Origin: Tepidanaerobacter syntrophicus
GTDB taxonomy: Bacteria; Bacillota; Thermosediminibacteria; Thermosediminibacterales; Tepidanaerobacteraceae
DNA: 64,000 nt
Assembly: GCF_001485475.2 (NCBI RefSeq)
Contig: NZ_DF977000.1
Location: 124,001-188,000, forward strand
Direction: 5' to 3'
The translations under genes and the position numbers were made by a program. Positions 11,582-39,971 of the stretch are shown here, one piece after another; within the stretch, counting starts at the first letter, position 1, and each line of letters starts with the position of its first letter. Under the pieces are notes generated by a model. The model had not been told where the DNA came from. It saw only the letters and a program-made list of their open reading frames with translations, and searched no databases.

Positions 11582-11609
11582 AATGTCACCCCCAGAATCG
11601 TTTCATAAT

Positions 11610-12863
11610 TTATGAAAAAAATAATTTAGCTCGGCCAAAACCTCTTGTAGTCATGCCACCTACCCCTAAACATTCATAGTATTTTTTGCTATCCTTTAGT
11701 GCCATAACAACCTCGTTTATAGTAGGTGCAACTTCGCTTTGGCTTTCGAGCAGCCTAATATTTCCATAAAAAACAGTGCCTCGAGGTATAGCTTCGGATG
11801 TAAACAAAGCTCCTTCCTTTGCCGTCCCTGTAAGGGGATTTATTGATACTGATGTTCTAACTTCTAAGTTCGCATTAATTATATTAGATATTAAATCATC
11901 AGGAACGATTATTAGATTCTCTGATATGTTTTTCCAAGTTTCTTCTTTATTTTCGAGGTTTGGTAATGCCAATAAAATATCCTGGTTTACTGCTTCAAGA
12001 TTTAGCCAGCCTAAATTAATATAATATTTATCATTTTCATTCTCACAGTTCTTTACTATAACAGCTGTATCATCTTTAAGCAAATTTCTAAGCCTGCTAA
12101 ACGAAGATTCGCTTAAGATATCCTCCGATTTATTCATTTGTTGAAATTTAGCTTTTATTCCCGCAGATTCTAAGATGTATGGAGATGTCACCCATTTAAC
12201 GCCCAATCGAGTATATACCGGAAAAAGAAGTATATTCAAATCAGAAAAATAAGCCATCCCTTGTTGTGATCTGTTTTTCTTTGAAAATCCAAAAGTCTTG
12301 CATATTATGCAGTGGCCACAATGCCCTGTATCAGATAATTCCCTAATACTACCGACAAGGCTATCCTCATAGTTTTCATTAGCTTTATCATCTTGCCCAG
12401 CACACTTAATAGATGAGATAAGATTGCCCCAATATAATTGCCAATCATTTTTCGTTTCATTATCATTATTATTTTCATAACAGTTAGTGTTTATTGCCGA
12501 ACTTATTGCTTTGGAGTATTTCTTAAACTTTGTCATTCGTTCGCTAAAGTTTTCTCTGCGACCTGCATCGAGTTCACGGTCTGCAAGTCGATTTACCAAT
12601 TCTCTAATGTCTTCTGTAGCAATTTCGTTTCCTCCAAGAATGCTCTTTATGTTTTCAAAATTCTTTTTGTACCATCCTTGTAATTCTAATGCCATATAAT
12701 ATCTCCAGGTTCCCGCAATGCTTGAGCCTGGTATTTTTGGTATTTTTGTTATAGTATCTCTTACGATCGTATTATCTACTCTGCCAATTGTATATCCTCC
12801 TGTGCCAATAAAAATAGGGTCAGTCGATAATGCGTACATATTTAATTCTTGTTTTTCGCTCAT
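11610..12863 (-). CDS. cmr4: Cmr4-like backbone RAMP with probable target-RNA nuclease Asp
   Basis: A 417-residue Cas7-group RAMP. The N-terminus follows the Cmr4 plan: ALSTDPIFIGTGGYTIGRVD, then IVRD and PKIPGSSIAGTWRYYMA. Asp30 in GRVD aligns with the Asp that cuts target RNA in Cmr4/Csm3. A cysteine cluster GHCGHCIICKTFG near residue 185 is likely a zinc site, MAYFSDLNILLFPV corresponds to the conserved Cmr4 strand after it, and VGGMTTRGFGRAKL is the C-terminal glycine-rich loop. Several copies should form the complex spine. It is longer than ordinary Cmr4 (about 290-340), mainly from inserts at residues 60-180. Start ATG 12863 follows AAAAGGAG. Confidence 0.85.
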   Translation of the reverse strand: MSEKQELNMYALSTDPIFIGTGGYTIGRVDNTIVRDTITKIPKIPGSSIAGTWRYYMALELQGWYKKNFENIKSILGGNEIATEDIRELVNRLADRELDAGRRENFSERMTKFKKYSKAISSAINTNCYENNNDNETKNDWQLYWGNLISSIKCAGQDDKANENYEDSLVGSIRELSDTGHCGHCIICKTFGFSKKNRSQQGMAYFSDLNILLFPVYTRLGVKWVTSPYILESAGIKAKFQQMNKSEDILSESSFSRLRNLLKDDTAVIVKNCENENDKYYINLGWLNLEAVNQDILLALPNLENKEETWKNISENLIIVPDDLISNIINANLEVRTSVSINPLTGTAKEGALFTSEAIPRGTVFYGNIRLLESQSEVAPTINEVVMALKDSKKYYECLGVGGMTTRGFGRAKLFFS

Positions 12864-12880
12864 TTTTAATTTCTCCTTTT

Positions 12881-15800: not shown

Positions 15801-16066
15801 TCAGGAAAGTCTTCATTTATCCGTTTTAAATCTTCTTTAAATCTGCTTAAATTGGGGTCTTTATTATCTGTATAATAATCTCTGTACCCAGTAAAAATTG
15901 GATATCCATATTCTGCTTCAAACGCCTTTGCATTGATGTTAAAATAATCACTCCAATGTTTGAAATTAATATGTGTCTTCCCAAGGTTAAATAAAAGTGC
16001 TCCTATCTCTGCTTTTATTATTTCCGTCTTATTCTTTTTAAGTTTTTCTAAATCCAAACTACCCAC
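12881..16066 (-). CDS. csx11: Csx11-type Cas10 large subunit, HD and GGDD sites apparently lost
   Basis: A 1061-residue Cas10-superfamily protein, most like the Csx11 branch. The N-terminal HD position reads GALLFNLGK (residues 22-30): the His-Asp pair of the usual LLHDLGK is Phe26-Asn27. A zinc ribbon with two CxxC pairs (CQAC and CDGC, about residues 437-460) matches the Cas10 finger. In the second palm domain, INPTPISWQF (about 757-766) stands where GGDD should be, followed by the Csx11-like GKLPLHIG and PLYIGIKAGRKI. If both readings hold, it has neither DNase nor cyclic oligoadenylate synthase activity and acts as a scaffold. GTG start at 16066, with AAGGTGG before it, 12 bases after the preceding gene. 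Confidence 0.82.
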   Translation of the reverse strand: MGSLDLEKLKKNKTEIIKAEIGALLFNLGKTHINFKHWSDYFNINAKAFEAEYGYPIFTGYRDYYTDNKDPNLSRFKEDLKRINEDFPDFFYNTKVGLEKDLLLSDIVYGDGIEKKRPLNVINFVKNILFHGCENVNSGIDKGEPLEKQKLKNLWISNAFGSFKEEVKEEMLDKQRICFFKNLWKMISSIPRKPEDFSDDDWIEIRNFVFEEVKNWYSHLLSDSRFPINDVTLWDQAYMTASLFKASLAAIQLDSSKYKDYIDNTKCRKIRWSILGVQYDKLALAEKALKAHFIKWYRDAADKADKMVKDIIETEYALGNEIYRDETGIYFIIPENAGDFRNKSDYIFPLNKSLKEIADKIMKVFSEIFGGEIYPSIFTTKPSRGMMNITYLLEKSRENFLKASYPTDSDNNFEKICKGIALKLKETEDKTNSNFNGLCQACNFRLARKSDEDLMICDGCKERKDNRIEEWIKNINGETIWTGDLKDSNDRIAIVTLKFELQDWLNGDLINTTFTNQIDWHLKKNLLVKDFSVAGKLVKETILKEYVNKGVHNQKLHDFTANIILERSIGDRWEEFIKSKLGVKVDFDKGKIDWDKLNGEDSDFLATILLQFVLRKNPSPARLRRIWETTQDFFIECSKDMKSLLDISDEDYRYKRLVWYRAVDERGYMEKEYSYKGLDFWIDKKGNAYLISSIAEAIPIIVKKSFKDKAKDTLAIKNTDWLDDILLQDYYTGEYTDINLSGDMATYESYLPYISIINPTPISWQFIISAQSLPCLISNIQNKYYNHFKYVAGKLPLHIGTIFQYYKQPLYIGIKAGRKIRRDITSWNEIQMNGKALDIEEIQKEALKNITIYEKNENPTNYYSFYLTINNKENEYQLYINPEDKKTDICEVDFKNSKPITKIVIYPNTIDFEFLDTNCRRNDICYSKGKRKIEGKSNRPYTWKEWKLFNEFAEYFRNDQNKIAGLHQIINIIYSKLNDWRNDEDSIKKFMLSAFINIFDLKTDNEKDKFAHILIQPTYTDSATTVPKLENILIMPPNEFRRCLLRFLDMYEFWHTALRKI

Positions 16067-16078
16067 TACCCTTCCACC

Positions 16079-17239
16079 TTACATATTCAAGTAGCATATT
16101 GTGTCTTTCTCTACTATGCAAGCCTTTCCCCAACCATATTTGCTTTTTGCGCCTATTCCTTCTTCCTCAAAAGAATATTGGATAAGAGTTTTTATAATCT
16201 CATAGTCATTATTTACTTGATCTTTTAACTCTTTAAATGGCAGCATTACTGCATCATAAGGTATATATATAAATTGAAAAATGCCTTCTGTGCCTTGTGG
16301 AACTACTTCAAAATAAATAGGAAAAGTCCCAGCTTTTGTATTTCTATTGTGCGGATTTATCACTTCTAGATCTAACCGGTTAAAATACGTTGGGTAGAAC
16401 ACTCCTCTACCTTTTTTAGTTTTAATTGTTTCAATATTATCTTCGAAATATTGCCATATTTGCTCCTTTATACTCTTACCTTCTTTGCTGAATATAAGAT
16501 TTATCCCTAACTCTTCTAATGCATATTTTACAACTTTAGAAGTAAGATCGATTTCGTAAGCGCTTGTTTCTATTTTGTTTTTGGAGTTTTTTTCATTTTT
16601 TACATAGTCATCAATTGCTTTTTCGATCTTGCGGAATTCTTCCGAGCCTGTACCAAAAATCCTTAAAATGCTTTGAAAATATCGGATAGCTTCTACTTCT
16701 TGATTTTTATCCATGAGTTCAGCTAACTTTTTTGAAGCTGTTTTCAGAAGCATCCCTTTCCATCCAGCTCCTCTTACCATCGGAACTTTCCATATTTTCT
16801 CTTTTAATATCGGGTTGTCAATTATATAAAAGTCCTCCATATCGCGCGAAAAATAAGGGGCTTGTAAAATAAATCTATACTGAAGCCCAAAGGAACCTGG
16901 TATAAGAGATTTAATGTAATCTTGAAGAGCGCTTTGGTTTTTAAAGATGCCAGACGATTTTTGTGCAGAGCACGCATCATTAGAGCAATACCAAAAACCA
17001 TTTTTTTCTTTTTTAAAAAAAGCTAATGGGAACTCTTGAAATTTAACTTTTTTGGGCATTTCTTTGTGCGAAATATGGCTCGTTTTTACAAACGGAAATG
17101 TATTAAGAAAATCTTCCTCTGCTAATTCTTCTACTTTTTTATCTGAACTTTTGTCAACTGTATATTTATATGAATATTTTAAAAAGAGGGCATATGGCGT
17201 TAATTCCTTTGGGCAATCATAAATAGCTTCATATTTCAT
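16079..17239 (-). CDS. cmr6: Cmr6-like RAMP protein
   Basis: A 386-residue RAMP. The phrase LDLEVINPHNRNTKAG followed by FPIYFEVVPQG matches the Cmr6 pattern MNPHY ... P-pv-F, and GIGAKSKYGWGKA near the C-terminus is the Cmr6 glycine-rich loop. KVPMVRGAGWKGMLLKTA corresponds to the IPGSSLKGALR-type RAMP segment. An N-terminal extension carries two cysteines (FWYCSNDACSAQK) and may bind metal. Cmr6 sits at the crRNA 3' side of the complex beside Cmr1. It overlaps the upstream gene by 4 bases, indicating translational coupling. Confidence 0.72.
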   Translation of the reverse strand: MKYEAIYDCPKELTPYALFLKYSYKYTVDKSSDKKVEELAEEDFLNTFPFVKTSHISHKEMPKKVKFQEFPLAFFKKEKNGFWYCSNDACSAQKSSGIFKNQSALQDYIKSLIPGSFGLQYRFILQAPYFSRDMEDFYIIDNPILKEKIWKVPMVRGAGWKGMLLKTASKKLAELMDKNQEVEAIRYFQSILRIFGTGSEEFRKIEKAIDDYVKNEKNSKNKIETSAYEIDLTSKVVKYALEELGINLIFSKEGKSIKEQIWQYFEDNIETIKTKKGRGVFYPTYFNRLDLEVINPHNRNTKAGTFPIYFEVVPQGTEGIFQFIYIPYDAVMLPFKELKDQVNNDYEIIKTLIQYSFEEEGIGAKSKYGWGKACIVEKDTICYLNM

Positions 17240-18264
17240 CGGCTCACCCCGCTTAAAAATTTTTGTAAAAGTATTAGAGAAATAAATCCATACTGATACG
17301 AATTATTTGCTGTTTTATTGATCCAAGGAATTATTTTTGTGGCATTCGGACCTTCAATATTTTGATACTTGTCACGTTTGGTAGAACCAAATATGTAGTG
17401 CCGTTTTTCTTTATCGTCTACAGCCGATCTCATATCACTTTTGTATTTAACCAACTTTTCACTTATTTTTTTATAATCGGTATCTTTGCTTCTTCCCATA
17501 ATGTATAGACCAATTTGTCTATTTTCAATGAGGCTATCTTCTAATAAGTCCTTAAAATTTGCTATATTTTCCTTCACAATCTCGCTACAATTGATTTCAG
17601 GATATCCCTTAATTTTAAAGCTATTATAAATTTCAAGATTTTCATCTTCCACTTCGAATTTTACTCTCCCATACCCAAGGTTATTTTTCCCTCCAATGAA
17701 TCCATATATTTCAATAAAATGCAATAGCGGATATATGATGGTTTTCTTTAATTCATCGCTTTCCAATTCGAGATATAAACAGAAATCCCCCCAAAAGTAT
17801 GGTTTTTCATAATACCATTTCGAAGGTTTTTGCCTCTCAATAGATTCTTTTAGAATATACTTTGGTAGCTCTAATTGATCATTTAAGAAAGAGTGGATTG
17901 AGTATTCGAGTTTCTTTATTTTTACAAAGCCACACCAGCCATTACACCCAAAGATTTGAGAAGGTAAAGAAACTTTAAGTTCTTCTAAGGATCTCTGTTT
18001 AATTTCAAAAAGTGACATACCTACTTCGTTATTTCTTTCGGCACTTGATAATATATTATATACTCCCGATTTAAACTTATTATAATCTACCTTTTCTGCT
18101 TGATAGGATTTAACATCAATCTTGCTTGATGCATAACATATCACTTCAAACCAGAATCGCAGGGAACCCATAACAGATTGAGGCTGTATGCGCTTGCATG
18201 TGCCCGAAGCGTTCCCTGTCCATAAAGGTGTTACAGTATTTACTTTGATTTTTAGTGTTGTCAA
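17236..18264 (-). CDS. cmr1: Cmr1-like RAMP protein, first gene of the type III operon
   Basis: A 342-residue RAMP. The N-terminus, KVNTVTPLWTGNASGTCKRIQPQSVMGSLRFWFEV, is the classical Cmr1 pattern (TPLxTGG ... iRppSixGalRFWfR), shown here in parts: TVTPLWTGNASG, then RIQPQSVMGSLRFWFEV. SLPSQIFGCNGWCG follows the SlFG pattern of RAMPs and GGKNNLGYGRVKFEV is the glycine-rich loop. The longer ATG reading from 18369 is rejected: TTG 18264 is preceded by AAAAGGAGGTGAACGCGAA, a near-perfect ribosome binding site. No cas6, cas1 or cas2 lies in this operon, so crRNA supply must come from the I-B genes. Confidence 0.82.
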   Translation of the reverse strand: MTTLKIKVNTVTPLWTGNASGTCKRIQPQSVMGSLRFWFEVICYASSKIDVKSYQAEKVDYNKFKSGVYNILSSAERNNEVGMSLFEIKQRSLEELKVSLPSQIFGCNGWCGFVKIKKLEYSIHSFLNDQLELPKYILKESIERQKPSKWYYEKPYFWGDFCLYLELESDELKKTIIYPLLHFIEIYGFIGGKNNLGYGRVKFEVEDENLEIYNSFKIKGYPEINCSEIVKENIANFKDLLEDSLIENRQIGLYIMGRSKDTDYKKISEKLVKYKSDMRSAVDDKEKRHYIFGSTKRDKYQNIEGPNATKIIPWINKTANNSYQYGFISLILLQKFLSGVSR

Positions 18265-18464
18265 TTCGCGTTCACCTCCTTTTGCTTTTGCAAAAATCAT
18301 AACCATGCTAATTAACTTAAAAAATATAGTTATCGTGTTTATTTTAATTTGAATACAATTTCTCAGCATCCTGTTACATTACATGCAGTGCATCTTATCA
18401 GCCTTTAGAGATATTTTGAGGTTTATTGTTTATGCAATTTTGTGCTTTATGAATTTTTGATAGT

Positions 18465-25505: not shown

Positions 25506-25554
25506 TTTGTCCACCCTTTAAGCTTTTCTTCAATGAAATTCTTCTGTACTGTTT

Positions 25555-25713: not shown

Positions 25714-28700
25714 GATTTAATTCCTTATAGGTAGGCTATAAACGAAGATGCACTAATAAACTTCGGCCTGCAGAAAGCGTTGTTTCAATTCCTTATAGGT
25801 AGGCTATAAACGAAATGAACTGGGGTTATTCACTCCATCCAATAGAATGTTTCAATTCCTTATAGGTAGGCTATAAACGACAGCGAAGACGTTATAACTT
25901 CGTTGTCTAGATTATGTTTCAATTCCTTATAGGTAGGCTATGAACGTAGCTTTGGTGTTAAAAGATACAGTGCCTTCTGTGTTTCAATTCCTTATAGGTA
26001 GGCTATGAACGTTGGAGCCGTTACTACTCTTACCTCATGGCAGTTCTTGTTTCAATTCCTTATAGGTAGGCTATGAACCAGGCCGCTAGGCTTAGTGCCG
26101 GAAACATACGTTTGTTTCAATTCCTTATAGGTAGGCTATGAACATACTATTAAATATGACCAAAAATAGCCTTTAAAGTGTTTCAATTCCTTATAGGTAG
26201 GCTATAAACTAATATATTATAACAATAAAAAAAGGAGTTGTAACAAGTTTCAATTCCTTATAGGTAGGCTATAAACAAATAGCAACAGATGCAATTGCGA
26301 AAAGCGCTGCCAGGTTTCAATTCCTTATAGGTAGGCTATGAACCAATAGGGGCGCTAAACGAGACCGAAAGGCAAATAAGTTTCAATTCCTTATAGGTAG
26401 GCTATGAACTTACTAAATCAGATATTAATTTATTCATTTCATCAATGTTTCAATTCCTTATAGGTAGGCTATGAACTACAGCAGCAGTTCTAACAAACAT
26501 GCTAGGGTTTGAAGGTTTCAATTCCTTATAGGTAGGCTATGAACTCTGTATCTGTAAGCTCTTAACATACTATCATCACCAGTTTCAATTCCTTATAGGT
26601 AGGCTATGAACTCTTCTCGGCTGTGCAGTCTTGTTTTTGAAAATACGTGTTTCAATTCCTTATAGGTAGGCTATGAACTATGCAACCCTTATCCCATTGT
26701 GCAACCCTTGTATGTTTCAATTCCTTATAGGTAGGCTATGAACGGCCGGACAAGCCCAAAATATACCTTTTGGGGATTTGTTTCAATTCCTTATAGGTAG
26801 GCTATGAACGGTTTAAGTGGGGCTTTGAGCAGCTTCTGTATTTTGGTTTCAATTCCTTATAGGTAGGCTATGAACGTAGTCCAGGTTCTGGTTGTAACGC
26901 ACCCTGGCAGTTTCAATTCCTTATAGGTAGGCTATGAACGTTGTCTTCCATAAATTCATACAACTCATCTTGATAGTTTCAATTCCTTATAGGTAGGCTA
27001 TGAACTTGAAGTGCTGGACAAGAATTATAATCCATCACAGGCGTTTCAATTCCTTATAGGTAGGCTATGAACCCATGCTTGCCTTGCTTTGTATATATGG
27101 GAGAGCCGCGTTTCAATTCCTTATAGGTAGGCTATGAACCCTTTGGTGTTGGTGGGCTATGTGGATGGTCAAAAGGTTTCAATTCCTTATAGGTAGGCTA
27201 TGAACCTGGAGCAAAAAATGAAGGGAGGCAGAGAAGGTGATGTTTCAATTCCTTATAGGTAGGCTATGAACACTGTGGCTGTAGGGAGGTGTTGTAATAA
27301 AGGGTAGTTTCAATTCCTTATAGGTAGGCTATGAACATGTTTGTATTTTTTGAGTAATTCCTAAAGTTTTATGTTTCAATTCCTTATAGGTAGGCTATGA
27401 ACATCATCTCTAAAGTTTGATTTAACATAACCTTTAAACCGTTTCAATTCCTTATAGGTAGGCTATGAACAGTGTGTTCAGTCCTACAGGTTTACAATTA
27501 TAATCGTGTTTCAATTCCTTATAGGTAGGCTATGAACGCCTTGCAGCCCGTGATTAATTAGGGTCTCTCTTCGTTTCAATTCCTTATAGGTAGGCTATGA
27601 ACTGGAAGAAAATCCGCAGGACCAAGACGAGATTTGAGCGTTTCAATTCCTTATAGGTAGGCTATGAACCGCCCAAGAGCATGAAGTATTTCAGGCCTAT
27701 GGCGGTTTCAATTCCTTATAGGTAGGCTATGAACGCGATCATCTGTTCATAAGCGTTGCCGCCGGCTTTTTTGTTTCAATTCCTTATAGGTAGGCTATGA
27801 ACGTACCCACTGATGTTGTTCCCATAGCAACAATACGGTTTCAATTCCTTATAGGTAGGCTATGAACGGTAAACCTTCGCGTCCCAGGTGTTACGCTCCA
27901 TGTTGTTTCAATTCCTTATAGGTAGGCTATGAACGGTTTTGAAAGGCTGCTGCCAGTCCAGCTTCGGCTAGTTTCAATTCCTTATAGGTAGGCTATGAAC
28001 CCGGGCAGCTCAACAAAGACGGTGACGGCATTTTAGTTTCAATTCCTTATAGGTAGGCTATGAACGCAGGTGAACGTATGTTTGTTGCAATCCATCGCTC
28101 AAGTTTCAATTCCTTATAGGTAGGCTATGAACCAGTAGATACATATTGGGCTGCTGATCATTCTTCTGTGTTTCAATTCCTTATAGGTAGGCTATGAACT
28201 AAATGGGTGTTCAGGTGCATTGAACACTACTTGTAGTTTCAATTCCTTATAGGTAGGCTATGAACTCCGGCTCTATGGTTACTTTGAATGATTGCCCTGA
28301 GTTTCAATTCCTTATAGGTAGGCTATGAACTAGAAATTGCCCATAGTAGTGTCAGTATTTATTGTCAGTTTCAATTCCTTATAGGTAGGCTATGAACACG
28401 ATGCACTAAAAGCAGGAGGTATACAAAACGCAAGTTTCAATTCCTTATAGGTAGGCTATGAACTGTTTGCGTGGCGTGATGTTGTTGTCAATCATGGTGT
28501 GTTTCAATTCCTTATAGGTAGGCTATGAACCGAAATTGCCCGAGCAATTGACAGATACTGTCAAGAGTTTCAATTCCTTATAGGTAGGCTATGAACGGAA
28601 GAGCCAGAGCATTATGACCATCGGGGAATATTGTTTCAATTCCTTATAGGTAGGCTATGAACTTTTTTTGTGTGTTGCGAAGAATTTCCCTATATCTTGG

Positions 28701-31606
28701 TTTCAATTCCTTATAGGTAGGCTATGAACACCAACAGCGGCCTTCTCCGGCAGAGGGCGGCATATTGTTTCAATTCCTTATAGGTAGGCTATGAACTTAT
28801 TCCATGCTGTTCTTTCTGCCGAAGTTATATGCTGTTTCAATTCCTTATAGGTAGGCTATGAACCCACGGTTTCATGAGAAACCTTGTAGACGACAAGGTT
28901 GTTTCAATTCCTTATAGGTAGGCTATGAACTTTGCACTTCTTGACCCCCTCCTTTGGGCCCCTGAGGTTTCAATTCCTTATAGGTAGGCTATGAACTTTG
29001 AACGGCTCCCAATTGATTAGAGCCGTCCGGAGTTTCAATTCCTTATAGGTAGGCTATGAACGCCACAGAGCAAAATCTTAAAAGCCTTGAGAAACAATGT
29101 TTCAATTCCTTATAGGTAGGCTATGAACATTTAGTGAGTTCTGCTTTTAGCTGGGGTAAAAATTGTTTCAATTCCTTATAGGTAGGCTATGAACTAGGAA
29201 TATGTTTATTTTTAAATACGCCAGCAGCTCTGTTTCAATTCCTTATAGGTAGGCTATGAACGACCCAATCCATAAATGCATCTGCTTTAGGTTGGCGACG
29301 TTTCAATTCCTTATAGGTAGGCTATGAACATTTAGTGTGGTTGCTGTAATTGTAAGAGTATCACCTTGTTTCAATTCCTTATAGGTAGGCTATGAACTAT
29401 ATCTGTTCATTTTATCACCGCCTTAATAGAATTCGTTTCAATTCCTTATAGGTAGGCTATGAACTTCACCTCCAATGTAAAAGCCCCCTTTCGACAGGGC
29501 AGTTTCAATTCCTTATAGGTAGGCTATGAACTCAAATATTGATGGACCAAACCGGAATATATATCAATGTTTCAATTCCTTATAGGTAGGCTATGAACTA
29601 TGACCTTTGGCTTGTCCAGTTCAATTTGGTGCTGGTTTCAATTCCTTATAGGTAGGCTATGAACTAGATTTGCTATAGTTTTAGCCATGTTCTGTATCGT
29701 GTTTCAATTCCTTATAGGTAGGCTATGAACACATTCCTGCAAATACTTGTCACTAGCATAAAGGTCAATGTTTCAATTCCTTATAGGTAGGCTATGAACT
29801 GTCCGGGGTCGGTTTTGTGTCTGTGCTTTTACCGGTTTCAATTCCTTATAGGTAGGCTATGAACTAGAAACGGGCCGGTGGGAATGATAGATGTAATGTT
29901 GTTTCAATTCCTTATAGGTAGGCTATGAACTCAGATGCACAATAGAAACACTCACGATAGAAACACGTTTCAATTCCTTATAGGTAGGCTATGAACTAGA
30001 CAGGCTGACTGCCCGTTGAAGCCGGTGGAGGAGTTTCAATTCCTTATAGGTAGGCTATGAACGACCTGCCCATTTTTTGTTAGAACACATCTAACAGTGG
30101 TTTCAATTCCTTATAGGTAGGCTATGAACAATGAGAACCGATTTGATTAGAACCAGATTTATGCTGTTTCAATTCCTTATAGGTAGGCTATGAACTTCAT
30201 ATGCAGAGCCGATATGTAAAAAAGACACTCAGTTTCAATTCCTTATAGGTAGGCTATGAACTAACAGTTACAGCCGATGAAAATCTTCTCAAAAACCTTG
30301 GTTTCAATTCCTTATAGGTAGGCTATGAACAATGGAAGGAGGGCGTAAAATGGCATGGCAAACACCGTTTCAATTCCTTATAGGTAGGCTATGAACTAGC
30401 CCGCATTTGACCCAAAGCCAGGATAATTCTGTGTTTCAATTCCTTATAGGTAGGCTATGAACTAATAACCGGTCTTCCAGGCTTACCTCTTGGCATTGTA
30501 GTTTCAATTCCTTATAGGTAGGCTATGAACTTACGCTGTAACCCATAATCGTGCCGCCGGTAATGGGTTTCAATTCCTTATAGGTAGGCTATGAACGTGC
30601 ATCCAAGGACATTTTAATCATCGCACTTCCAGGTTTCAATTCCTTATAGGTAGGCTATGAACGGAAATGAAGCCTACCTTAGCCGGTTTTTGGGAGTGGA
30701 GTTTCAATTCCTTATAGGTAGGCTATGAACGAGTTCGGGGAATATAATGGGCAATTTCTTATACAAGTTTCAATTCCTTATAGGTAGGCTATGAACTTTT
30801 GCCCTGGAAAGCAACGCCCCTAGGATGCAAAAGTTTCAATTCCTTATAGGTAGGCTATGAACGGTATACCTGCATGGGAAATACTTGCAGAGGCAATGAA
30901 GTTTCAATTCCTTATAGGTAGGCTATGAACTCAAGCCTTCCCTTCAAGTTTATCGATGATGATTGAGTTTCAATTCCTTATAGGTAGGCTATGAACTTTT
31001 TATCTTTAAGGGAGCGGTTACAAGAGGAGATAATGTTTCAATTCCTTATAGGTAGGCTATGAACTGTAAAAGCCATTTATAACCACCTCTCCCTATAAGT
31101 TACCGGTTTCAATTCCTTATAGGTAGGCTATGAACTGTATGCAAAATACTTCCCTGTATCTGCACCCCTGCGCTGGTTTCAATTCCTTATAGGTAGGCTA
31201 TGAACATGAAAAAAGAGCCCGAAGGCTCTTCTCATATTACAGTTTCAATTCCTTATAGGTAGGCTATGAACCTCCTAACTGATATGTTTTACTCTGTAAT
31301 TTTTCTGCGTTTCAATTCCTTATAGGTAGGCTATGAACTATTGAAATTCTGCTCTTCTTGTATTCTCCAATTATGTTTCAATTCCTTATAGGTAGGCTAT
31401 GAACTCAAGTTTTGGATTGCTTTCTCCATTTACCCAATCCTTGTTTCAATTCCTTATAGGTAGGCTATGAACTATTTCTTTATTCTCATCGTTATAAAGA
31501 ATTTTTCCAGTTTCAATTCCTTATAGGTAGGCTATGAACTTTCAAAAATAGTTATAATTTCTTGAACTTTAGTGTAGTTTCAATTCCTTATAGGTAGGCT
31601 ATGAAC
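25714..31606 (-). CRISPR. CRISPR array 2: 89 repeats, 88 spacers, two repeat variants
   Basis: I count 89 copies of the same 30-bp repeat as array 1, mean period 66.6 bases. Repeat 1 (25714) is degenerate at two positions near its start. Repeats 1-3 and 8-9 (26180, 26247) end in CTATAAAC like array 1, while repeats 4-7 and apparently all of 10-89 end in CTATGAAC. The leader is on the right, so the oldest units are at the left and transcription is leftwards. Some spacers hold phage-like signals, for example AAGGAGGG before an ATG (around 30331-30352) and a terminator-like hairpin (31206-31241). The array lies between cas1 and cas2. Confidence 0.98.
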
Positions 31607-31801: not shown

Positions 31802-32794
31802 TTACCATCTTGCTATAAATGCTTCATATTTTTCTTCTCCGATAAGATGCTTTTCTAATTTGTATAGCTCCATACGTATTATTCGCCGATAAGAAATATT
31901 TCTTCCTAATTCTCTGTGCTTTATTGTTGTATTTAATTTGTCTTCATACTCTTGAACAAAAGCCTTTTTGGCATTTTCTTTCATAAGCAATCCATCGGTG
32001 GTTTTCTCGAAATCATCAGCTTTTATGATGTTCCTTCCCAGCAAAGTATAAATTACCCTGTCCACTATAATTGGTTTGAAAATTTCTGATACATCTAGAT
32101 TTAAGGTAAATCGTCGAAAGTTAGTCGCGTGCAAGAATCCTATTCGCGGATCAAGATGTGTTTTATATATTTCGCTAAGGCACGTAGTATACATGAGTGA
32201 GTTGCCAAAGCTTATCATGGTATTAAGATTGTTTTTTGGTGGTCTTCTGGTTCGTTCTACAAAACTAAATTCGGGTTTTTGTATTATTTCATCAAAAGCG
32301 TCGTAATAGTATTGTCTGATATTGCCTTCAATCGCCATTAATTCATCTATCTGCAAACATTCATCAATGTGCTGTTCAAGATTATTTATCTCATTTTCAA
32401 TATCTTGTAAGTTTTTGCCACGATTAATATAATACCTTACCGCTTGTCTCATATTTTTTGATGCCCCGATAACAAATTCCTTTGCCAATTCCAGTCTTTT
32501 TTCATTATCTAAATAGTGCTCAGCTTGTTTTAAAATCATATGCCCGGAATTTAAGTGTTCTCTTGGATAGTAAGTACCAGCGTAATAGCCATAATAATTG
32601 TAAAAATGTAAGATTATTTCTGAAGTCGTTGCAAACTCAAGAAACCTTTTGTTTATATCTACTTCTCCAAAAATGTGAATTTCACTCGTGCCGTTTACTG
32701 GAATATATTTCTTGCCTGCTTCATTTTCGAAGAACAATGTATTATCTTTTCTTTTTAGTTCTCCATTAGAAAATATGTATACAGGTTTTTTCAC
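31802..32794 (-). CDS. cas1: Cas1 integrase, type I-B
   Basis: A 330-residue Cas1 with all catalytic residues: Glu156 in MAIEGNIRQ, His222 in GFLHATN, and Asp234 and Glu237 in LDVSEIFKP. The N-terminal beta domain (YIFSNGELKRKDNTLFF) is complete. It integrates new spacers next to the leader that starts 18 bases after its stop codon. It is the last gene of the I-B operon, 12 bases after cas4; the transcript may continue into the array leader. Confidence 0.97.
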   Translation of the reverse strand: MKKPVYIFSNGELKRKDNTLFFENEAGKKYIPVNGTSEIHIFGEVDINKRFLEFATTSEIILHFYNYYGYYAGTYYPREHLNSGHMILKQAEHYLDNEKRLELAKEFVIGASKNMRQAVRYYINRGKNLQDIENEINNLEQHIDECLQIDELMAIEGNIRQYYYDAFDEIIQKPEFSFVERTRRPPKNNLNTMISFGNSLMYTTCLSEIYKTHLDPRIGFLHATNFRRFTLNLDVSEIFKPIIVDRVIYTLLGRNIIKADDFEKTTDGLLMKENAKKAFVQEYEDKLNTTIKHRELGRNISYRRIIRMELYKLEKHLIGEEKYEAFIARW

Positions 32795-32806: not shown

Positions 32807-33313
32807 TTAAGCAAAACAAAATTCTGCATATGCACAGTTTTTACAAAATGGAATTTTTCTAGCTGCGGGAGGTTGTTCTAGGTATATGATTTTTAAGATA
32901 TCTTGTTTCATTTGTTCAAGTTCAGTTAACGCCTCTTCGTTTAGCAAAACTTCTTCGCGCTTTTTTTCCTCTGGAAAATAAAGTTCGCCTCTTGCCGATA
33001 TCCCATTTTCTTTCAAAATTGATAGATAAAACAGCAGCTGCATTCTTGCTGCAAGCTTAAATTTACTGCTCTTTTTTACTTCACCTATCACAATCTGTCC
33101 ATTGTCCATCTTTAGTATATCAAGTTTAATATTGCCTATCTGCATCTCTTTCTTTTCACGCTGGTAAGAACTTTCATTAATAAATCTGCCAATCTCTATG
33201 AATTCATTTTCTTGGTCAGCCACGATGCTCCGAGCTATCAGCCAAGCTTCTCTCTTGCATACACAATAGTACCAAATCAGTGTGCCATTAATTTTAACAT
33301 CTTCTGCAGACAT
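32807..33313 (-). CDS. cas4: Cas4 RecB-like nuclease
   Basis: A 168-residue Cas4. The N-terminal Cys of YYCVCKREAWL and the C-terminal trio in FCKNCAYAEFC hold the Fe-S cluster; GNIKLDILKMDNG, IGEVKKS and AARMQLLFYLSIL are RecB nuclease motifs II, III and QhxxY-like. Cas4 trims prespacers and enforces PAM selection with Cas1-Cas2. It lies between cas3 and cas1 as usual in I-B. Confidence 0.95.
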   Translation of the reverse strand: MSAEDVKINGTLIWYYCVCKREAWLIARSIVADQENEFIEIGRFINESSYQREKKEMQIGNIKLDILKMDNGQIVIGEVKKSSKFKLAARMQLLFYLSILKENGISARGELYFPEEKKREEVLLNEEALTELEQMKQDILKIIYLEQPPAARKIPFCKNCAYAEFCFA

Positions 33314-33389: not shown

Positions 33390-35630
33390 TTATATGATAG
33401 AAGGACTGTCATCATACTTAATTCCTCGTTCCGCACTATATTCCACTTCACAAAAAGGCAATGGACACTGTTCATCTTCAACTCTCGTCGCTGCTATCCA
33501 CCTTCGATATTTGCTGTAAGTTACGGGCACTTCATACAAGGGTATTTTTGCATACTCCTTTTCTGCATATAGTTCTTCAACTTTTTCCTTAAATATTGTA
33601 GGTATAATAGCTACTTTTATGATATCAAATCGTCTTGTAGCAAGCTTTTCGTCTATCGGTAAATCAAATATAAACAGTTCATCTGCGATATTTTGATATA
33701 GTTGCAAACCTTCTTCATAATTTTCATCATAAATATCAAACCCATCATAAACTTCTTCAATCATGTCTATAATTTCTCGCTCGGCTAATTTCTTTTGCTT
33801 TAATTTCAGTATCGTTTGAGTTTTTTCTAAAATTGCTCTTGAGTCTTTATAAACATATTTTATACTTATCTCCGACGGATCAAAGACAATAAACTCCGAA
33901 TTTTCAAATTCTAAGTGACGGTTGCAGCGTCCTGCTCTTTGTACCAAACTGTCAATAGGAGCACATTCCGAGAACATAATTTCAAAGCTTACATCTAAAG
34001 ATACTTCTAAGACTTGTGTAGCAATAACTAATTGATAATCCTTGCTTCCTTCTAATAACAAAGCTTCTTTTTTCATTCTATCTTCCATCGTAAATTCGGA
34101 ATGTAGACACAAGACACGAAGCGACTCATTTTTTTCATGCCAGTAATCATATTCTCTTTTTGCAGTTTCTATATCATTTACTACTAATGCAACTTTTTTA
34201 CCTTGCTGTAAGTATTCTTCTATTTCATCTCTAATATCTTCTAAATTCTTTTCAATATATCTCCAAGTGTTCGATTTTCTATCCATTAATTCTTCTGCTA
34301 TAATGGGTTTTTCTATATCTAATAAATCTTGAAAATGTTTTAACAAAAACTTTGGAAATGTAGCGCTCATTAACATAACCCTACCGCCTAATGTCTTTAT
34401 TTTTTTAATAGTTTGAGTAATAAGCGCTAATGTAAAGGTGTCGTATGACTGGATTTCATCGAAAATTACTGTACTGTTTATTAGAGCATATTCTTTTAAA
34501 CCCCATAATGTAGAGTTAAAACCGCTTGTTAAAATTTGATCGACGGTAGATACCATCACAGAGGGTATGAGGGCTTTTCCGTGTAGAAGCGTAAACGATG
34601 GTAAAGCATCATTTTCTTGTAGTGCAAAATAGGTGTTTGCGCCAGAATGACTCAAGCCACAAACCTTGGGATTAAAATAATATTTTTTCATACGTTCATA
34701 AATACTATTGGAAGTTACTTTAGTAGGCATACAAAAAATTATCTTCTTGCTGTCAAATTGCGCAGCCCACAAAAGAGATGCTTCAGTCTTTCCTGAACCT
34801 GTAGGTGCTATTGCTATTACATCGCCCTGGGCTTGAGCACACTTTTTATGAAACGGTCTTTCTACGTAAGTTCTGCCTTCTTCTTCTAATTTTTTCTTTA
34901 ATCTTTGAATTAGCTCATCTTGAGTAAGTGTATACTTTCGGATCTCTTCTTCCGAGGATGCCATCCAGTCACAATATTGGAGTTGGCCTTTAGCAATAGC
35001 GTAAAGTAAACGTAGGTCATAACGACTGATGGTTTTAAATGCTCCTCTTTCCTCCATACTCAGTAAACTAAATATGTTCTCTAAAATTAATTTTATCGTT
35101 AGTGGAAAACTTTCTGTATTCAAAGGTATTTGTGGCCTTATACCATGGTATTCATCTAATAGTTTACAACCATATTCGATTTCCTCATTGCTAAGTAATG
35201 GCCAGTTCTTTTTGTTAAATTCTCGTTCAAAACTATCAAATCTTTGATCTATTTGTTTGTGATGCGATATTACCGCAAAAAGCGGATACCCAAAATCCGC
35301 TTTTTGCTTTTTCCACTCACCTGCAAAAGGCAGCATATAGTAAAACGAAAGTAATTCATGTCGAAAGTGATACTTTTTATTTACTTTTTCTCCCCGGATA
35401 ATAGTTCGCATAACTTCTTGAAAGTTGCAATTTAACTTTCCAAAATCATGCATTAGAATTGCAATTTTCATTTTTTGCTCATATTGCTCCGGCGTCTCTC
35501 CACAACGGTTAAGCAATGGAGTTAAATATTTTAGTGTTTCTTTTAACTCATTTTCAAAGGTTTCATAGACTTTGCTAACATGATAGTAGTATGAACCTTT
35601 TTCACCATTTATAGGCTTAGCGTAATACAT
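33390..35630 (-). CDS. cas3: Cas3 HD nuclease-helicase, type I-B
   Basis: A 746-residue fused Cas3. The HD nuclease comes first (AILMHDFGKLNCNFQ with His61-Asp62, then ISHHKQID). The SF2 helicase follows: Walker A APTGSGKTE (about residue 275), Walker B IFDEIQSYD (about 390), motif III MLMSATFP and motif VI QRAGRCNRH. It is recruited by Cascade to a full R-loop and degrades DNA. It starts 3 bases after the cas5 stop; a gap of 76 bases to cas4 holds no obvious terminator. Confidence 0.97.
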   Translation of the reverse strand: MYYAKPINGEKGSYYYHVSKVYETFENELKETLKYLTPLLNRCGETPEQYEQKMKIAILMHDFGKLNCNFQEVMRTIIRGEKVNKKYHFRHELLSFYYMLPFAGEWKKQKADFGYPLFAVISHHKQIDQRFDSFEREFNKKNWPLLSNEEIEYGCKLLDEYHGIRPQIPLNTESFPLTIKLILENIFSLLSMEERGAFKTISRYDLRLLYAIAKGQLQYCDWMASSEEEIRKYTLTQDELIQRLKKKLEEEGRTYVERPFHKKCAQAQGDVIAIAPTGSGKTEASLLWAAQFDSKKIIFCMPTKVTSNSIYERMKKYYFNPKVCGLSHSGANTYFALQENDALPSFTLLHGKALIPSVMVSTVDQILTSGFNSTLWGLKEYALINSTVIFDEIQSYDTFTLALITQTIKKIKTLGGRVMLMSATFPKFLLKHFQDLLDIEKPIIAEELMDRKSNTWRYIEKNLEDIRDEIEEYLQQGKKVALVVNDIETAKREYDYWHEKNESLRVLCLHSEFTMEDRMKKEALLLEGSKDYQLVIATQVLEVSLDVSFEIMFSECAPIDSLVQRAGRCNRHLEFENSEFIVFDPSEISIKYVYKDSRAILEKTQTILKLKQKKLAEREIIDMIEEVYDGFDIYDENYEEGLQLYQNIADELFIFDLPIDEKLATRRFDIIKVAIIPTIFKEKVEELYAEKEYAKIPLYEVPVTYSKYRRWIAATRVEDEQCPLPFCEVEYSAERGIKYDDSPSII

Positions 35631-35633
35631 TAT

Positions 35634-36383
35634 TTATTCATTTCCTTTTTCATTAAATATATAGCACAAAGAAACTACTGTATCATCAAAAAAATACACA
35701 GAAACCGGATTAGTAGGCTTTTGATTGTCTCCCAAAAAGGTAAAAGTTTGGTATGAACAAGCTTGTCGAGCACCATCAGTTTCAAATGTATAATCTACAG
35801 GTAGTAATTTAACTATTGCTGGCTTTATAGTTTTTGCAATAGGAGTCTTACTTATTTTTTCCCAGTCTAATTCAAGATTAGACAATTGATCGCCATAAAT
35901 CCAGGTATTATCTATTTCTGAGCTTTTACCTATTTTTAAATCATCGTGCCATGTTACCTTGCTTAATTTTGCAATATCATCGCTTGTGCCTAAGGTTAGT
36001 CCGTAATAAGGTGCTGTAAAAGCATTATATAGCTCCTTTGCTATTTCCTTGTCCTCGCACATATAATACAATTTGCCACGAAATTCATATAAAAACTCTC
36101 TGATAACTATATCTGTGCCTGATTTGCCGCCACTTTTTATCTTCTCATAATTCCAGAGGTCGCGGCCTTTGCCTTGATAATTCCCTTGGCATCCGACCCC
36201 AATATGATACCTTTTGAAAAAGCTGAGAGTTTCTTCAAAACTCTTGCCCATTGCTGCTCCTGCAAATCCCGCAAGGGTGCTAGGAGGGGGTAAAGGGAGT
36301 GTCTCATGATACAACTGTCCTGCCGCTTCTCGAAATGAAGCAGTAATTGCTTCAACTTCTATGCTTATACCTTTCAAATTCAT
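35634..36383 (-). CDS. cas5: Cas5, type I-B
   Basis: A 249-residue Cas5. The N-terminus LKGISIEVEAITASFREA and the proline-rich PLPPPSTLAGFAGAAMG are the conserved Cas5 RAMP start and helix. Cas5 caps the 5' handle of the crRNA. Start ATG 36383 has AAAGGGAGGGAA directly upstream and leaves a 28-base gap to cas7; the longer reading from 36479 would overlap cas7. Confidence 0.93.
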   Translation of the reverse strand: MNLKGISIEVEAITASFREAAGQLYHETLPLPPPSTLAGFAGAAMGKSFEETLSFFKRYHIGVGCQGNYQGKGRDLWNYEKIKSGGKSGTDIVIREFLYEFRGKLYYMCEDKEIAKELYNAFTAPYYGLTLGTSDDIAKLSKVTWHDDLKIGKSSEIDNTWIYGDQLSNLELDWEKISKTPIAKTIKPAIVKLLPVDYTFETDGARQACSYQTFTFLGDNQKPTNPVSVYFFDDTVVSLCYIFNEKGNE

Positions 36384-36411
36384 TTCCCTCCCTTTGCTTA
36401 ATGAATTTTCC

Positions 36412-37287
36412 TTAATAAACTTCGCTAATCCAGTTTCTGATTTCTTTAAAGGCTTCTCCGATTGGCACAAACCCGTCATGATCTAAATCAAAGAAACCTT
36501 TTCTTTCTCCAAATGTATGAGCCAAAATCTGTGATGAAAAATCTTCTGCTGTATTTTTGATTAGCTCAGCATCAAAATCGTTTTCTCCTTTTAGTTTTAC
36601 GCTCTCAAGAAAAATAGGATTTTTAACCGGCATAATAGCTGCGCAAACCATCTTAGGCGACATATCAGTTAAAAATCTGCTCTGCCTTCCTACGGTCCAA
36701 AGGTTTTGTATTGCATCGCAAAGTGCAAGGACTCTCTTAGTTTTTTCTTCCGGACTTAAGCTAAGTTCGTAAAGGTCACCCTTTGAAGCTTCTCCAACCC
36801 TATCAAGCTCGATTAGAATAGTCCCGCAATAAAATCCGGAATGGATTTCCGTTTCAAATATGTTGGGATTGCCCCCAGCAGAAACAGACATATAATTCGT
36901 ACCAAAATCCATGTCTCCTAGATATGGATTAAGAGCAATTGCCGGCGATACGCGAACCGGGCTTGTTCTTTTTACAGTTTCTTTTTTCGCATCCATAAAC
37001 CCAAATAAATCATCATCGATATAGTTTTTGGGATCACACAACGTAGTAGCAGCACCTTTCTCTTTCTCTCCGGCTTTTCCTTCAGAAAGTTCAAAGCCCA
37101 TCACCGCAAGTTGCTCTCTAAGCGCTCTCCGAATAGCTTGTGAAGAACAGTATGGATAATCTTTCCCATCATTTTTACGTATCTTTTTTATGCTGGAAAT
37201 GTTATCTGCTTCTTTGTCAGAACCATTTAATGAAGCATAGCTTGCCTTTGTCAAATAAGTAATTGTCAATGCCTTAATTTTCTCCAT
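36412..37287 (-). CDS. cas7: Cas7 (Cst2/DevR family), Cascade backbone
   Basis: A 291-residue Cas7 of the Cst2/DevR type. ALTITYLTKASYASLNGSD and the following CSSQAIRRALREQL are typical, as is VRVSPAIALNPYLGDMDFGTNYMS-type thumb region and TVGRQSRFLTDMSPKMVCA. It polymerises along the crRNA spacer. It overlaps the end of cas8 by 14 bases, implying translational coupling. Confidence 0.94.
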   Translation of the reverse strand: MEKIKALTITYLTKASYASLNGSDKEADNISSIKKIRKNDGKDYPYCSSQAIRRALREQLAVMGFELSEGKAGEKEKGAATTLCDPKNYIDDDLFGFMDAKKETVKRTSPVRVSPAIALNPYLGDMDFGTNYMSVSAGGNPNIFETEIHSGFYCGTILIELDRVGEASKGDLYELSLSPEEKTKRVLALCDAIQNLWTVGRQSRFLTDMSPKMVCAAIMPVKNPIFLESVKLKGENDFDAELIKNTAEDFSSQILAHTFGERKGFFDLDHDGFVPIGEAFKEIRNWISEVY

Positions 37288-38980
37288 CTTTCACATCTCC
37301 TTTTTTAGAATCTGTCATGATACCATTATAAACATTCAATGCACCTAAAATACAGTAAGCTCGAAAATCTTCAAAATTAACATCGTTGATTAATCCCTCT
37401 TGTATTGGTTTAGATACAGAAATCCCATATCTAAACTGCAAGTTATTTAATTGGTTCAAGAAATCTGTTGCTGTCCGTGTTTTTCTCAGCTTAAATAAAT
37501 CGCCTTTAATTTTTTTAAATTCATCATTGTTCAGTTTTTGCTTTGCCTGCAAGACAATCTGCTTTCCCAAATTCACGGCAGCTTCAATCTGTTCTTTAGT
37601 CATGCTATCACCCCTTATAATTAATTGATAATTCATGATAAACAGCAGCATATTGCGCATACGCAGAAAACCGTTATTGCTCACTATTTTACTAAAACAA
37701 AATTCTTCCATATCCTGCAAGATAGGATGCTTATTTAGAACCTTTTTTAGTATTTCATTGCGCTTTAATGCCCTATTTTCAATTTTTGATTCCATTGTAT
37801 CGTATAAATCTTCAAATACTTGCTTTAAATTTACATCTTTTTCCATTAGTGCAGAAAATAGCCTAAACATGTATGCTGTATCTTGGTAAATGATTAAATC
37901 TTTAGTTATAAAAGTTTGCCCTTTAGTTTCTAAGAAAAGTAAAACTACTTCAGTTGGTGCTCCCAATATATCTCCGATTAGCTCTTGAAGAAATGAATTT
38001 ATGTTACTATTCACGTTTTCATTTTTTAGGTCATATTGTCTTTTTAGTAAATCATAGGCGTCAAAATAGAATGCCCAAAGCAGTTCATATGGTTTATTAG
38101 CATAATAAAGTAATTCATCTTTATTTACCCCTATATTTTTTAGAAAGTATTGATCATCAAAAGCTCTTAAAGCAGATCTGCAGCCAAGTTTGTCCTGTAA
38201 TTTGAGTAAATGTTTCAAATTGGGTGAGTTAGGAGAAATTATGATCATGGTATCGTTGTCCGTTTTATAGTGTATACACTCGTATGCAAATTTTGATAAG
38301 AAATTACACTCCCAACAAACAGCATCGAGTTTTCGTGCCTGAGAATGAAAGGATCGTGAAGCAGAAGCACTTGCAAATAAGAAATAGATTGGTTGTGCTA
38401 TATCATATACCTCAGTGTGTTCCTGGCCACATATACAGCAGGTATAGGTTTTCTTTTTACTCTTTTCTTTTGGCAAAATCTTGATTTCAGTATCGTGACA
38501 AATAGGTGGCTCATATAGAAGTTTTTCATCTTTACCCCACAGTTTTTTATTTGTTTGGCTTAAAAACTCATCAACTCGTTTTTTGAGAGATTCAGGCAAA
38601 TTTTCATATTTTTCTCCTTCGGCTTTCCAGCTTCTTGCGCTTAACACTTTTTGAATAGGCGGAATGGGCATTCGTCGCGGTGCTGTTTTTAGTTCATCTT
38701 TTTCTCTATCATATATTACAAGTTCCTGTTTTTCTCGCTGGCTGGCACTTGAGATATTCCAATACATCCCTGCAAGATGTTCATAGCATTCCCCGAGAAA
38801 AGAACGCAAATCATCAATATTTTCAGCTTGAAATGTAAGTCCTATCGATTTTGGAACAACTTCAATATTTAATTCCTCTCTTTTATCTCGAAGTGCATCC
38901 TTTACGGCTATAAGGTATAATCCGGCTAATCCCGCATTCAACCACCAATTATTTCTGACTTTAAAAGTATATTCCATCAT
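37274..38980 (-). CDS. cas8b: Cas8b-type large subunit (Cst1-like)
   Basis: A 568-residue large subunit resembling Cst1/Cas8b. The N-terminus FKVRNNWWLNAGLAGLYLI and a zinc site formed by CCICGQEH and CWECNF (residues about 183-225) are seen; the C-terminal third is helical, as expected for the Cas8 four-helix bundle that replaces a small subunit. It reads the PAM and starts R-loop formation. The combination with cas7 Cst2, cas5, cas6, cas3, cas4 and cas1 is the Tneap-like I-B arrangement. Confidence 0.88.
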   Translation of the reverse strand: MMEYTFKVRNNWWLNAGLAGLYLIAVKDALRDKREELNIEVVPKSIGLTFQAENIDDLRSFLGECYEHLAGMYWNISSASQREKQELVIYDREKDELKTAPRRMPIPPIQKVLSARSWKAEGEKYENLPESLKKRVDEFLSQTNKKLWGKDEKLLYEPPICHDTEIKILPKEKSKKKTYTCCICGQEHTEVYDIAQPIYFLFASASASRSFHSQARKLDAVCWECNFLSKFAYECIHYKTDNDTMIIISPNSPNLKHLLKLQDKLGCRSALRAFDDQYFLKNIGVNKDELLYYANKPYELLWAFYFDAYDLLKRQYDLKNENVNSNINSFLQELIGDILGAPTEVVLLFLETKGQTFITKDLIIYQDTAYMFRLFSALMEKDVNLKQVFEDLYDTMESKIENRALKRNEILKKVLNKHPILQDMEEFCFSKIVSNNGFLRMRNMLLFIMNYQLIIRGDSMTKEQIEAAVNLGKQIVLQAKQKLNNDEFKKIKGDLFKLRKTRTATDFLNQLNNLQFRYGISVSKPIQEGLINDVNFEDFRAYCILGALNVYNGIMTDSKKGDVKDGEN

Positions 38981-38989
38981 ATGCTTAAT

Positions 38990-39739
38990 TTACCTCCCTT
39001 CATTTATTATTTGTATGCACGAAAAACCTTGAGAGCCTTTGCTTCCAAGCCCAGCACTTAGTGCAAAGGACAGAAGTTCACTATCGCCTCGCAGGCGAAA
39101 TAACCCGCTAGAACCTTTTATAACTGTATTTTTATAAATAACTACATTTTGCTTATGATTGCCAACTGGGAAAATTTCGAATCTTTCAGGTGCCGGCCTA
39201 TTATAAAAGGCCTGCCATTTTTTTCTTAGATTTTCTTTGACTAATTCCTGAAACATTGGTTCCTTTGGCGTAAAATAACATGTATATTTTCCTCCATCTG
39301 GTTTTATAAAAGTACTATAGGCTACTATCGGAGATAGAGTTTGTACTAAGATAGATGTACTTTTGGTATTTGTCGGAATAAACTGTATTTCTTTAACCTG
39401 TAGTTTGTTTTTTCCTAAAACAATTTCACCTTTCTTTAAAATGGAATTCCCAAATGACTGGCAAAACTCATCCATCGGAGATGAAAAATACAGTTTCATA
39501 TCAGAAAAAAAGGTGATTGATTTGTTCTTTTTATCTATTGAGAATTTACCAAATAAATTAGAAAAATTAAACATTTTAAACGTGCGTTCATTATAGGTGA
39601 ATCCCCTATTGTGCAGAAAATCTGCGAGTTCATCATCTATATTATTGTATATCATTCCTTGAATTAAGTGATTATACTGCAACGGTAAAGTAGTTTGATT
39701 GTCATTTTGTCTATTTCTTAACAATAGACATAATTGCAA
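38990..39739 (-). CDS. cas6: Cas6 pre-crRNA endoribonuclease
   Basis: A 249-residue Cas6 with two RAMP folds. LPLQYNHLIQGMIYNNI (candidate general-base His24) and the C-terminal glycine-rich loop GLGSKGSQGFSCIQII are diagnostic. It cuts each repeat to leave the ATTGAAAC handle. As the only cas6 in the window it must serve array 1, array 2 and the type III complex. It is the first gene of the I-B operon; AAGGAGG precedes the ATG, and a guide-matching site of a divergent mini-CRISPR lies just upstream of that. Confidence 0.95.
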   Translation of the reverse strand: MQLCLLLRNRQNDNQTTLPLQYNHLIQGMIYNNIDDELADFLHNRGFTYNERTFKMFNFSNLFGKFSIDKKNKSITFFSDMKLYFSSPMDEFCQSFGNSILKKGEIVLGKNKLQVKEIQFIPTNTKSTSILVQTLSPIVAYSTFIKPDGGKYTCYFTPKEPMFQELVKENLRKKWQAFYNRPAPERFEIFPVGNHKQNVVIYKNTVIKGSSGLFRLRGDSELLSFALSAGLGSKGSQGFSCIQIINEGR

Positions 39740-39757
39740 TTTAAATCCTCCTTATTA

Positions 39758-39778
39758 TTGTGACTTTGCTGTTTTATT
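39758..39778 (+). promoter_or_regulatory. Target site of the mini-CRISPR guide in the cas6 leader
   Basis: Read on the plus strand, TTGTGACTTTG at 39758-39768 is identical to the first 11 bases of the mini-CRISPR spacer (39927-39937). The match continues to 39778 with mismatches only at guide positions 12 and 18. The three bases before it (39755-39757) are TTA, a plausible I-B PAM. The site spans about +7 to +27 of the predicted cas transcript. Confidence 0.85.
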
Positions 39779-39791
39779 TAATCTTACATTA

Positions 39792-39820
39792 AGCATAAAA
39801 CATAATAATCTAATTGTCAA
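39792..39820 (-). promoter_or_regulatory. Sigma-A promoter of the type I-B cas operon
   Basis: On the minus strand, a perfect -35 TTGACA (39815-39820) and a -10 TATGCT (39792-39797) are spaced 17 bases. Predicted start near 39785, giving a cas6 leader of about 45 bases that contains the guide target. Confidence 0.8.
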
Positions 39821-39862
39821 GAAGGTTTTTAAAAAAACTTAAAAAAACTTTTACAAAATAAG

Positions 39863-39891
39863 CTGCAATCTATCACGATTTTTGATATAAT
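39863..39891 (+). promoter_or_regulatory. Extended -10 promoter of the mini-CRISPR
   Basis: TGATATAAT (39883-39891) is a perfect extended -10; a weak -35 (CTGCAA, 39863-39868) has 17-base spacing. The start would be near 39898, the first base or two of the first degenerate repeat. Confidence 0.75.
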
Positions 39892-39896
39892 CAAAC

Positions 39897-39971
39897 AGAC
39901 ATAGATTGCCTATAAGGAATGGAAATTTGTGACTTTGATGTTTGATTAGTTTACCTATGAGGATTTTTATT
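39897..39971 (+). ncRNA. CreR-like mini-CRISPR: two degenerate repeats and one short spacer
   Basis: Compared with the crRNA-sense repeat, 39897-39926 matches at 21 of 30 positions (12 consecutive, CCTATAAGGAAT), and 39942-39971 at 18 of 30 (TAGTTTACCTATGAGGATTT against the repeat core, 16 of 20). The first copy also carries C at repeat position 4, as the array-2 variant does. Its handle reads ATGGAAAT instead of ATTGAAAC. The 15-base spacer (39927-39941) and the bases after it match the cas6 leader at 39758-39778. It is divergent from the cas operon. The arrangement fits the CreR class of crRNA-like RNAs that direct Cascade to repress cas promoters; processing by Cas6 is inferred. Confidence 0.83.

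Follow-up and report, generated by a model that had tools for sequence, protein, structure and literature searches.

A candidate CreR mini-CRISPR with a guide matching the cas6 leader of a type I-B cas operon in Tepidanaerobacter syntrophicus

A short crRNA-like unit beside the type I-B cas operon of Tepidanaerobacter syntrophicus is very likely a CreR element, with a guide that would direct the I-B Cascade to repress its own cas promoter. The unit lies in a 64,000-nucleotide stretch of contig NZ_DF977000.1 (positions 124,001 to 188,000; hereafter the window), where it adjoins the cas operon outside the CRISPR arrays, has degenerate repeats, and carries a guide partly complementary to the cas promoter region next to a PAM (16/17, TTA), with no toxin gene coupled to it. 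Pairing between guide and target covaries across genomes, suggesting that it is kept by selection. A sequence-only reading of the window had proposed such a CreR-like feedback loop, and the covariation, the pairing footprint and the presence of TTA in ten guide/target pairs give this proposal unusually strong support at the sequence level.

The mini-CRISPR lies on the plus strand, divergent from the cas operon, of which cas6 is the nearest gene. The TTGACA/TATGCT cas promoter proposed in the sequence-only reading was confirmed, with a 17-nt spacing, and cas6 has its own ribosome-binding site. A cas2 gene was located at 25242-25514 (minus strand), separated from cas1 by the 5.9 kb array, and no cas2-sized ORF lies beside cas1. 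The earlier description of a Csx11-type system sharing crRNAs holds anatomically, as the same repeat occurs in both arrays, the type III-C cluster has no cas6, and the genome contains one PF01881 protein. Both systems presumably depend on that Cas6, and from gene content the link between them is likely one of Cas6 supply rather than of crRNA sharing alone. No significant psi-repeat was found near the type III-C cluster, and no phage protospacers were found for the main array, which would have given an independent test of TTA as the PAM.

Table 1. Features of the mini-CRISPR, its target and the neighboring CRISPR-Cas genes (window coordinates)
Feature	Position	Strand	Basis or remark
Extended -10 element TGATATAAT of the mini-CRISPR promoter	39883..39891	+	Seen in sequence; expected start ~39898
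Psi-repeat 1 (degenerate CRISPR repeat)	39897..39926	+	22/30 vs closest array repeat variant GTTCATAGCCTACCTATAAGGAATTGAAAC
Functional guide, 17 nt, TTGTGACTTTGATGTTT	39927..39943	+	All homologous pairs keep pairing through position 17
Psi-repeat 2 (degenerate CRISPR repeat)	39942..39971	+	18/30, ACCTATGAGG core retained
Predicted mature CreR RNA, ~45 nt (8-nt handle + guide + psi-repeat 2 stem)	39919..39963	+	Predicted from type I-B handle length
PAM TTA	39755..39757	+	Read in sequence; TTA also in all nine homologous pairs
Target (protospacer) in cas6 leader, TTGTGACTTTGCTGTTT	39758..39774	+	16/17 to guide
cas operon promoter TTGACA-17-TATGCT	39792..39820	-	Consensus promoter scan
cas6, TTG start 18 nt past target	38990..39739	-	Sole PF01881 hit in genome
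cas8b-like large subunit	37274..38980	-	PADLOC Cas8b, E 1.4e-23; no Pfam/NCBIfam hit
cas7 (Cst2/DevR, type I-B)	36412..37287	-	Profile match
cas5	35634..36479	-	Profile match
cas3	33390..35630	-	Profile match
cas4	32807..33313	-	Profile match
cas1 (type I-B)	31802..32794	-	Profile match
Main CRISPR array, repeat common to second array	25714..31606	-	Repeat scan
Type III-C (Csx11/Cmr) effector cluster without own cas6	10327..18369	-	Gene content; sits between the two arrays
Second CRISPR array, repeat common to main array	6170..9806 (far end approximate)	-	Repeat scan

Psi-repeat 1 is the top repeat-like sequence of the window outside the arrays, with sites of at least 21/30 expected 0.13 times per 55 kb. 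Psi-repeat 2 is weak by itself and sits exactly where a second repeat would be expected, and a CCT-NNN-AGG repeat core is present in both. Both repeats noted in the sequence-only reading are thus real; its score of 18/30 is exact, while its 21/30 for psi-repeat 1 refers to the GTTTATAGCC variant rather than to the closest one. The nominal spacer (39927-39941) is 15 nt long, and guide pairing thus enters psi-repeat 2 by 2 nt. Compared with a canonical array, which has conserved repeats and full-length spacers, the unit has repeats of 22/30 and 18/30 and a spacer of 15 nt rather than 34-41 nt. Type I-B crRNAs carry an 8-nt handle. A good -35 element was not found for the mini-CRISPR promoter, and the extended -10 element directly 5′ of psi-repeat 1 was missed by the consensus scan. 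In silico, the psi-repeats barely fold, and an intact repeat folds somewhat better. An Rfam scan of the mini-CRISPR region and its comparison with phages gave no match.

The plus strand from 39927 matches the plus strand from 39758 at the first 11 of 11 positions, then at 16 of 17 and 19 of 21, with mismatches at positions 12 and 18. This agrees with the earlier count, including the start of the match at its first base and the TTA in place, and the bases preceding the boundary do not match, as had been argued against a simple duplication. The 19/21 figure stands as a count, but functional pairing stops at position 17 in the comparative data, and the three extra matches at positions 19-21 are probably accidental. 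Shuffled 3000 times, the surrounding 1200 bp gave a best 17-nt match of 15 and never 16/17 (0/3000). Tested on the same region, the best of 145 array spacers reached 14/17. Only one site in the genome combines the PAM with a perfect seed match to the guide, and this is the cas6 leader, where, relative to the cas promoter, the target covers about +11 to +27.

For comparison, we used 119 cas6- or cas8-bearing loci of related genomes, totaling 882 kb. An initial loose psi-repeat scan yielded far too many chance sites and was replaced by criteria of paired repeats and a guide match; a simple pattern search gave many chance matches in ordinary arrays, and those spacers were used as negatives. The first paired-psi-repeat scan, which returned none in eight shuffles of 77 kb, detected pairs beside cas genes in five other loci, and in the window and the four other loci with a visible target, the best guide match adjoins a TTA PAM. 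The main scan was position-blind, requiring a psi-repeat score over a fixed cut-off and, within 600 nt, 14 or more plain matches over 17 nt. It yielded ten guide/target pairs: the window, L058 (Pelotomaculum sp. UBA10960), G002, G120, G332, G135, G174, G356, G198 and G322, from eight families without counting L058. The PAM is TTA in 10/10 pairs, and the target lies on the guide strand in 10/10. With the consensus of one repeat family and targets at most 600 nt away, about a dozen positives among the 119 loci is a lower bound. Three pairs initially came from a search that masked positions 6 and 12, and the mismatch statistic took only those that also passed unmasked, namely G198/L113; L116 and L107 (found with masking) and L104 (13/17, listed for its PAM) were left out of the statistics.

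Further mini-CRISPRs lie at contig ends (G060, G081 and G269), and a local target was not found for those of G083 and L122. In G269 (L082, contig C49, 215-290), the two-repeat mini-CRISPR lies at the contig start beside methyltransferase and DUF1538 genes, with no cas genes nearby in view. Two same-genus relatives have a cas6 only 44% identical to that of the window and no match to its cas8; one of these genomes, G002, encodes a different I-B variant (Csh1/Csh2) with its own mini-CRISPR and a different guide between cas6 and cas8, and in the second only 164 bp are visible upstream of cas6. The only close orthologue of the window's cas8 (69%) is in G009/L047, where the contig ends just upstream of cas8, leaving the leader out of view.

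Across the ten pairs, positions 1-5, 7, 10, 11 and 13-17 are paired in 10/10 and positions 8 and 9 in 9/10, in contrast to position 6 (4/10), position 12 (2/10) and position 18 (1/10), beyond which pairing is at background. Within positions 1-17, 14 of the 16 mismatches fall at position 6 or 12 (binomial p 9e-12). The guides vary at every position, with a mean pairwise identity of 43%, and match their own targets at 14-16/17 compared with a mean of 7.4/17 for the targets of others. Since the guides differ and yet each fits its own target, this represents covariation rather than one conserved sequence. The check suggested in the sequence-only reading, covariation outside positions 6, 12 and 18, thus gave a positive answer, with the other 15 positions paired (13 at 10/10, two at 9/10). 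Shifting the guide start to 14 other offsets gave 0 TTA hits in any mini-CRISPR. Where promoter and gene are readable, the targets lie mostly at or just past the -10 element. The R-loops of type I Cascade have a flipped-out base at every sixth position. The concentration of mismatches at bases that Cascade leaves unpaired indicates that Cascade-bound guides are under selection; the footprint is the trace expected of selection for Cascade binding, and we know of no other cause that would produce it. One further psi-repeat pair, on the minus strand in G156 (L139), has a guide whose pairing with a TTA site at a distance of 123 nt is limited to positions 1-5 and 7-11.

This footprint bears directly on whether the unit could instead be a decayed two-repeat array, now functionless, whose spacer matches the cas promoter by chance or through an earlier acquisition from it. 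Its repeats are degenerate and self-derived spacers do occur, but decay should erode pairing evenly, whereas here covariation keeps the match in ten genomes, the mismatches fall nearly all at positions 6 and 12, and the PAM is constant; the mini-CRISPR spacers are also only ~15-20 nt long, compared with 34-41 nt in arrays. We therefore regard a dead remnant as very improbable. Even less credence goes to a route through the type III-C (Csx11/Cmr) complex, in which the CreR guide would also or mainly act as an RNA-level repressor of the cas6 mRNA leader: the repeats are common to both arrays and the target transcript in the window is complementary to the guide, but the PAM and the 6/12 signature are features of DNA-bound Cascade and are kept whichever way the target faces the gene.

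Least probable of all, in our assessment, is a CreTA-type addiction module, in which the guide would silence a toxic product (small RNA or peptide), with cas6 expressed by read-through. The guide architecture is the same as that of CreA, and in some relatives the target has a small ORF (55 aa in G120, 30 aa in G174) or a PemK toxin gene (G387) in its vicinity, but in the window the cas6 start, preceded by its ribosome-binding site, follows the target so closely that there is no room for a separate gene, and no CreT toxin gene lies between the target promoter and the cas genes.

Repression of the cas promoter by a CreR-loaded Cascade is thus the reading that we favor, and from it we infer the following course of transcription, processing, repression and sensing. 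The mini-CRISPR transcript would be cut by Cas6 in both psi-repeats, giving a crRNA-like RNA of ~45 nt, and the guide, half the usual length, would assemble a smaller Cascade. This complex would pair with three 5-bp segments (1-5, 7-11 and 13-17) of the cas6 leader beside TTA and, positioned at about +11 to +27, would block RNA polymerase and lower transcription of cas6-cas8-cas7-cas5-cas3-cas4-cas1. Because the guide is too short for an R-loop that licenses Cas3, the R-loop would stay incomplete and no chromosomal cleavage is expected. Repression would be relaxed if Cascade were scarce, filled by array crRNAs, or inhibited. The loop would also set the crRNA supply of the Cas6-less type III-C system: with a single detected Cas6 and no cas6 in the type III-C cluster, that system should be throttled too. 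An extended version with dual feedback, in which Cascade-CreR, by repressing the only cas6, starves type III-C of crRNAs and CreR in Cmr/Csx11 additionally targets the cas6 mRNA leader, appears unlikely; if true, one guide would exert DNA-level and RNA-level control over two CRISPR systems.

Several of the related loci have arrangements of their own. In G387 (L104, contig C27, 2930-3130, minus strand), a PemK/MazF-like toxin gene followed by cas6 has a mini-CRISPR in its leader, and the guide of this unit matches the promoter just upstream, next to TTA, pairing at positions 1-5, 7-11 and 13-15; a 72-aa ORF upstream is possibly an antitoxin, and the gene is possibly a CRISPR-repressed protein toxin. 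In G120 (L078, 6833-7138), the guide is directed not at cas6 itself but at the leader of a 55-aa ORF (MEKQIRHEKSNMSF...), which it matches at 16/17 beside TTA; this ORF sits between the mini-CRISPR and cas6 and may encode a toxin or small regulator. In G174 (L106, 1668-2929), the first gene of the cas6 + cas8b operon encodes a WYL-domain regulator, and the guide targets its promoter, with a 30-aa hydrophobic ORF between target and regulator that overlaps the regulator start. Just 5′ of cas6 in G119 (L107/L041), an ordinary array ends with a degenerate terminal repeat, and its final full-length spacer, adjacent to this repeat, fits the cas6 leader at 15/17 with TTA and mismatches at positions 12 and 16, which looks like a CreR emerging from an array end. 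The mini-CRISPR of G356 (L109, 3918-4020) lies within the 5′ leader of a downstream 704-aa large cas gene on the same strand, with its target 44 nt upstream, and guide and cas genes would form one self-repressed transcript. A Cas_APE2256 (ring-nuclease-like) gene in G322 (L103, 4125-5674) is preceded, at a distance of 277 nt, by a strong promoter that the guide targets (16/17, TTA); this long gap could accommodate a small RNA.

The less expected aspects of the proposed element are the three-segment, 17-nt pairing rule and the possible joint throttling of a Cas6-less type III-C (Csx11) system. If the reading is correct, sequence alone reveals lasting selection for RNA-guided autorepression of cas genes among the type I-B systems of Bacillota. 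The pairs would also provide a natural readout of the guide positions that Cascade uses in vivo, a 5+1+5+1+5 pattern with its end at 17, and this rule could help to predict further sites of CreR, CreA and off-target binding. Control of both type I and Cas6-less type III through one Cas6 would tie together the regulation of two immune systems. The primary paper on CreR (cas-regulating RNA) is reportedly that of Liu et al. 2023, Cell Host Microbe 31:1481.

CreR, as described in reviews (PMC12737573, PMC13131331, PMC12948488), is a crRNA-like mini-CRISPR RNA partly complementary to the cas promoter, and its repression is relieved once crRNAs or anti-CRISPRs occupy Cascade (PMC12737573). The window element shares this arrangement, and type I-B is among the published types. 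As CreR autorepression has already been published for type I-B (PMC13131331), the element adds a member rather than a new kind. The ordinary type I-B array of the same genome has the same repeat family and presumably the same Cas6, but differs in its conserved repeats, its 34-41 nt spacers, and in that none of the 145 spacers tested matches the cas promoter region above 14/17. CreA of haloarchaeal I-B CreTA resembles the element in its psiR1 and psiR2, its PAM-adjacent promoter target and its lack of need for positions 6 and 12 (PMC8501985, PMC9458426). There, positions 6 and 12 are dispensable and only 1-5 and 7-11 are needed (PMC8501985), a rule resembled by the two-segment match in G156; haloarchaeal CreA represses a toxin and uses the PAM TTC, in contrast to the cas leader target, TTA and pairing to position 17 seen here. 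The I-F CreA of Acinetobacter is similar in its 17 paired positions, its target downstream of the promoter and its divergent orientation, but belongs to type I-F and represses a toxin, a 33-bp mini-ORF located between cas3 and csy1; its positions 13-17 are essential (PMC10097628), in agreement with the 17-nt end point seen here.
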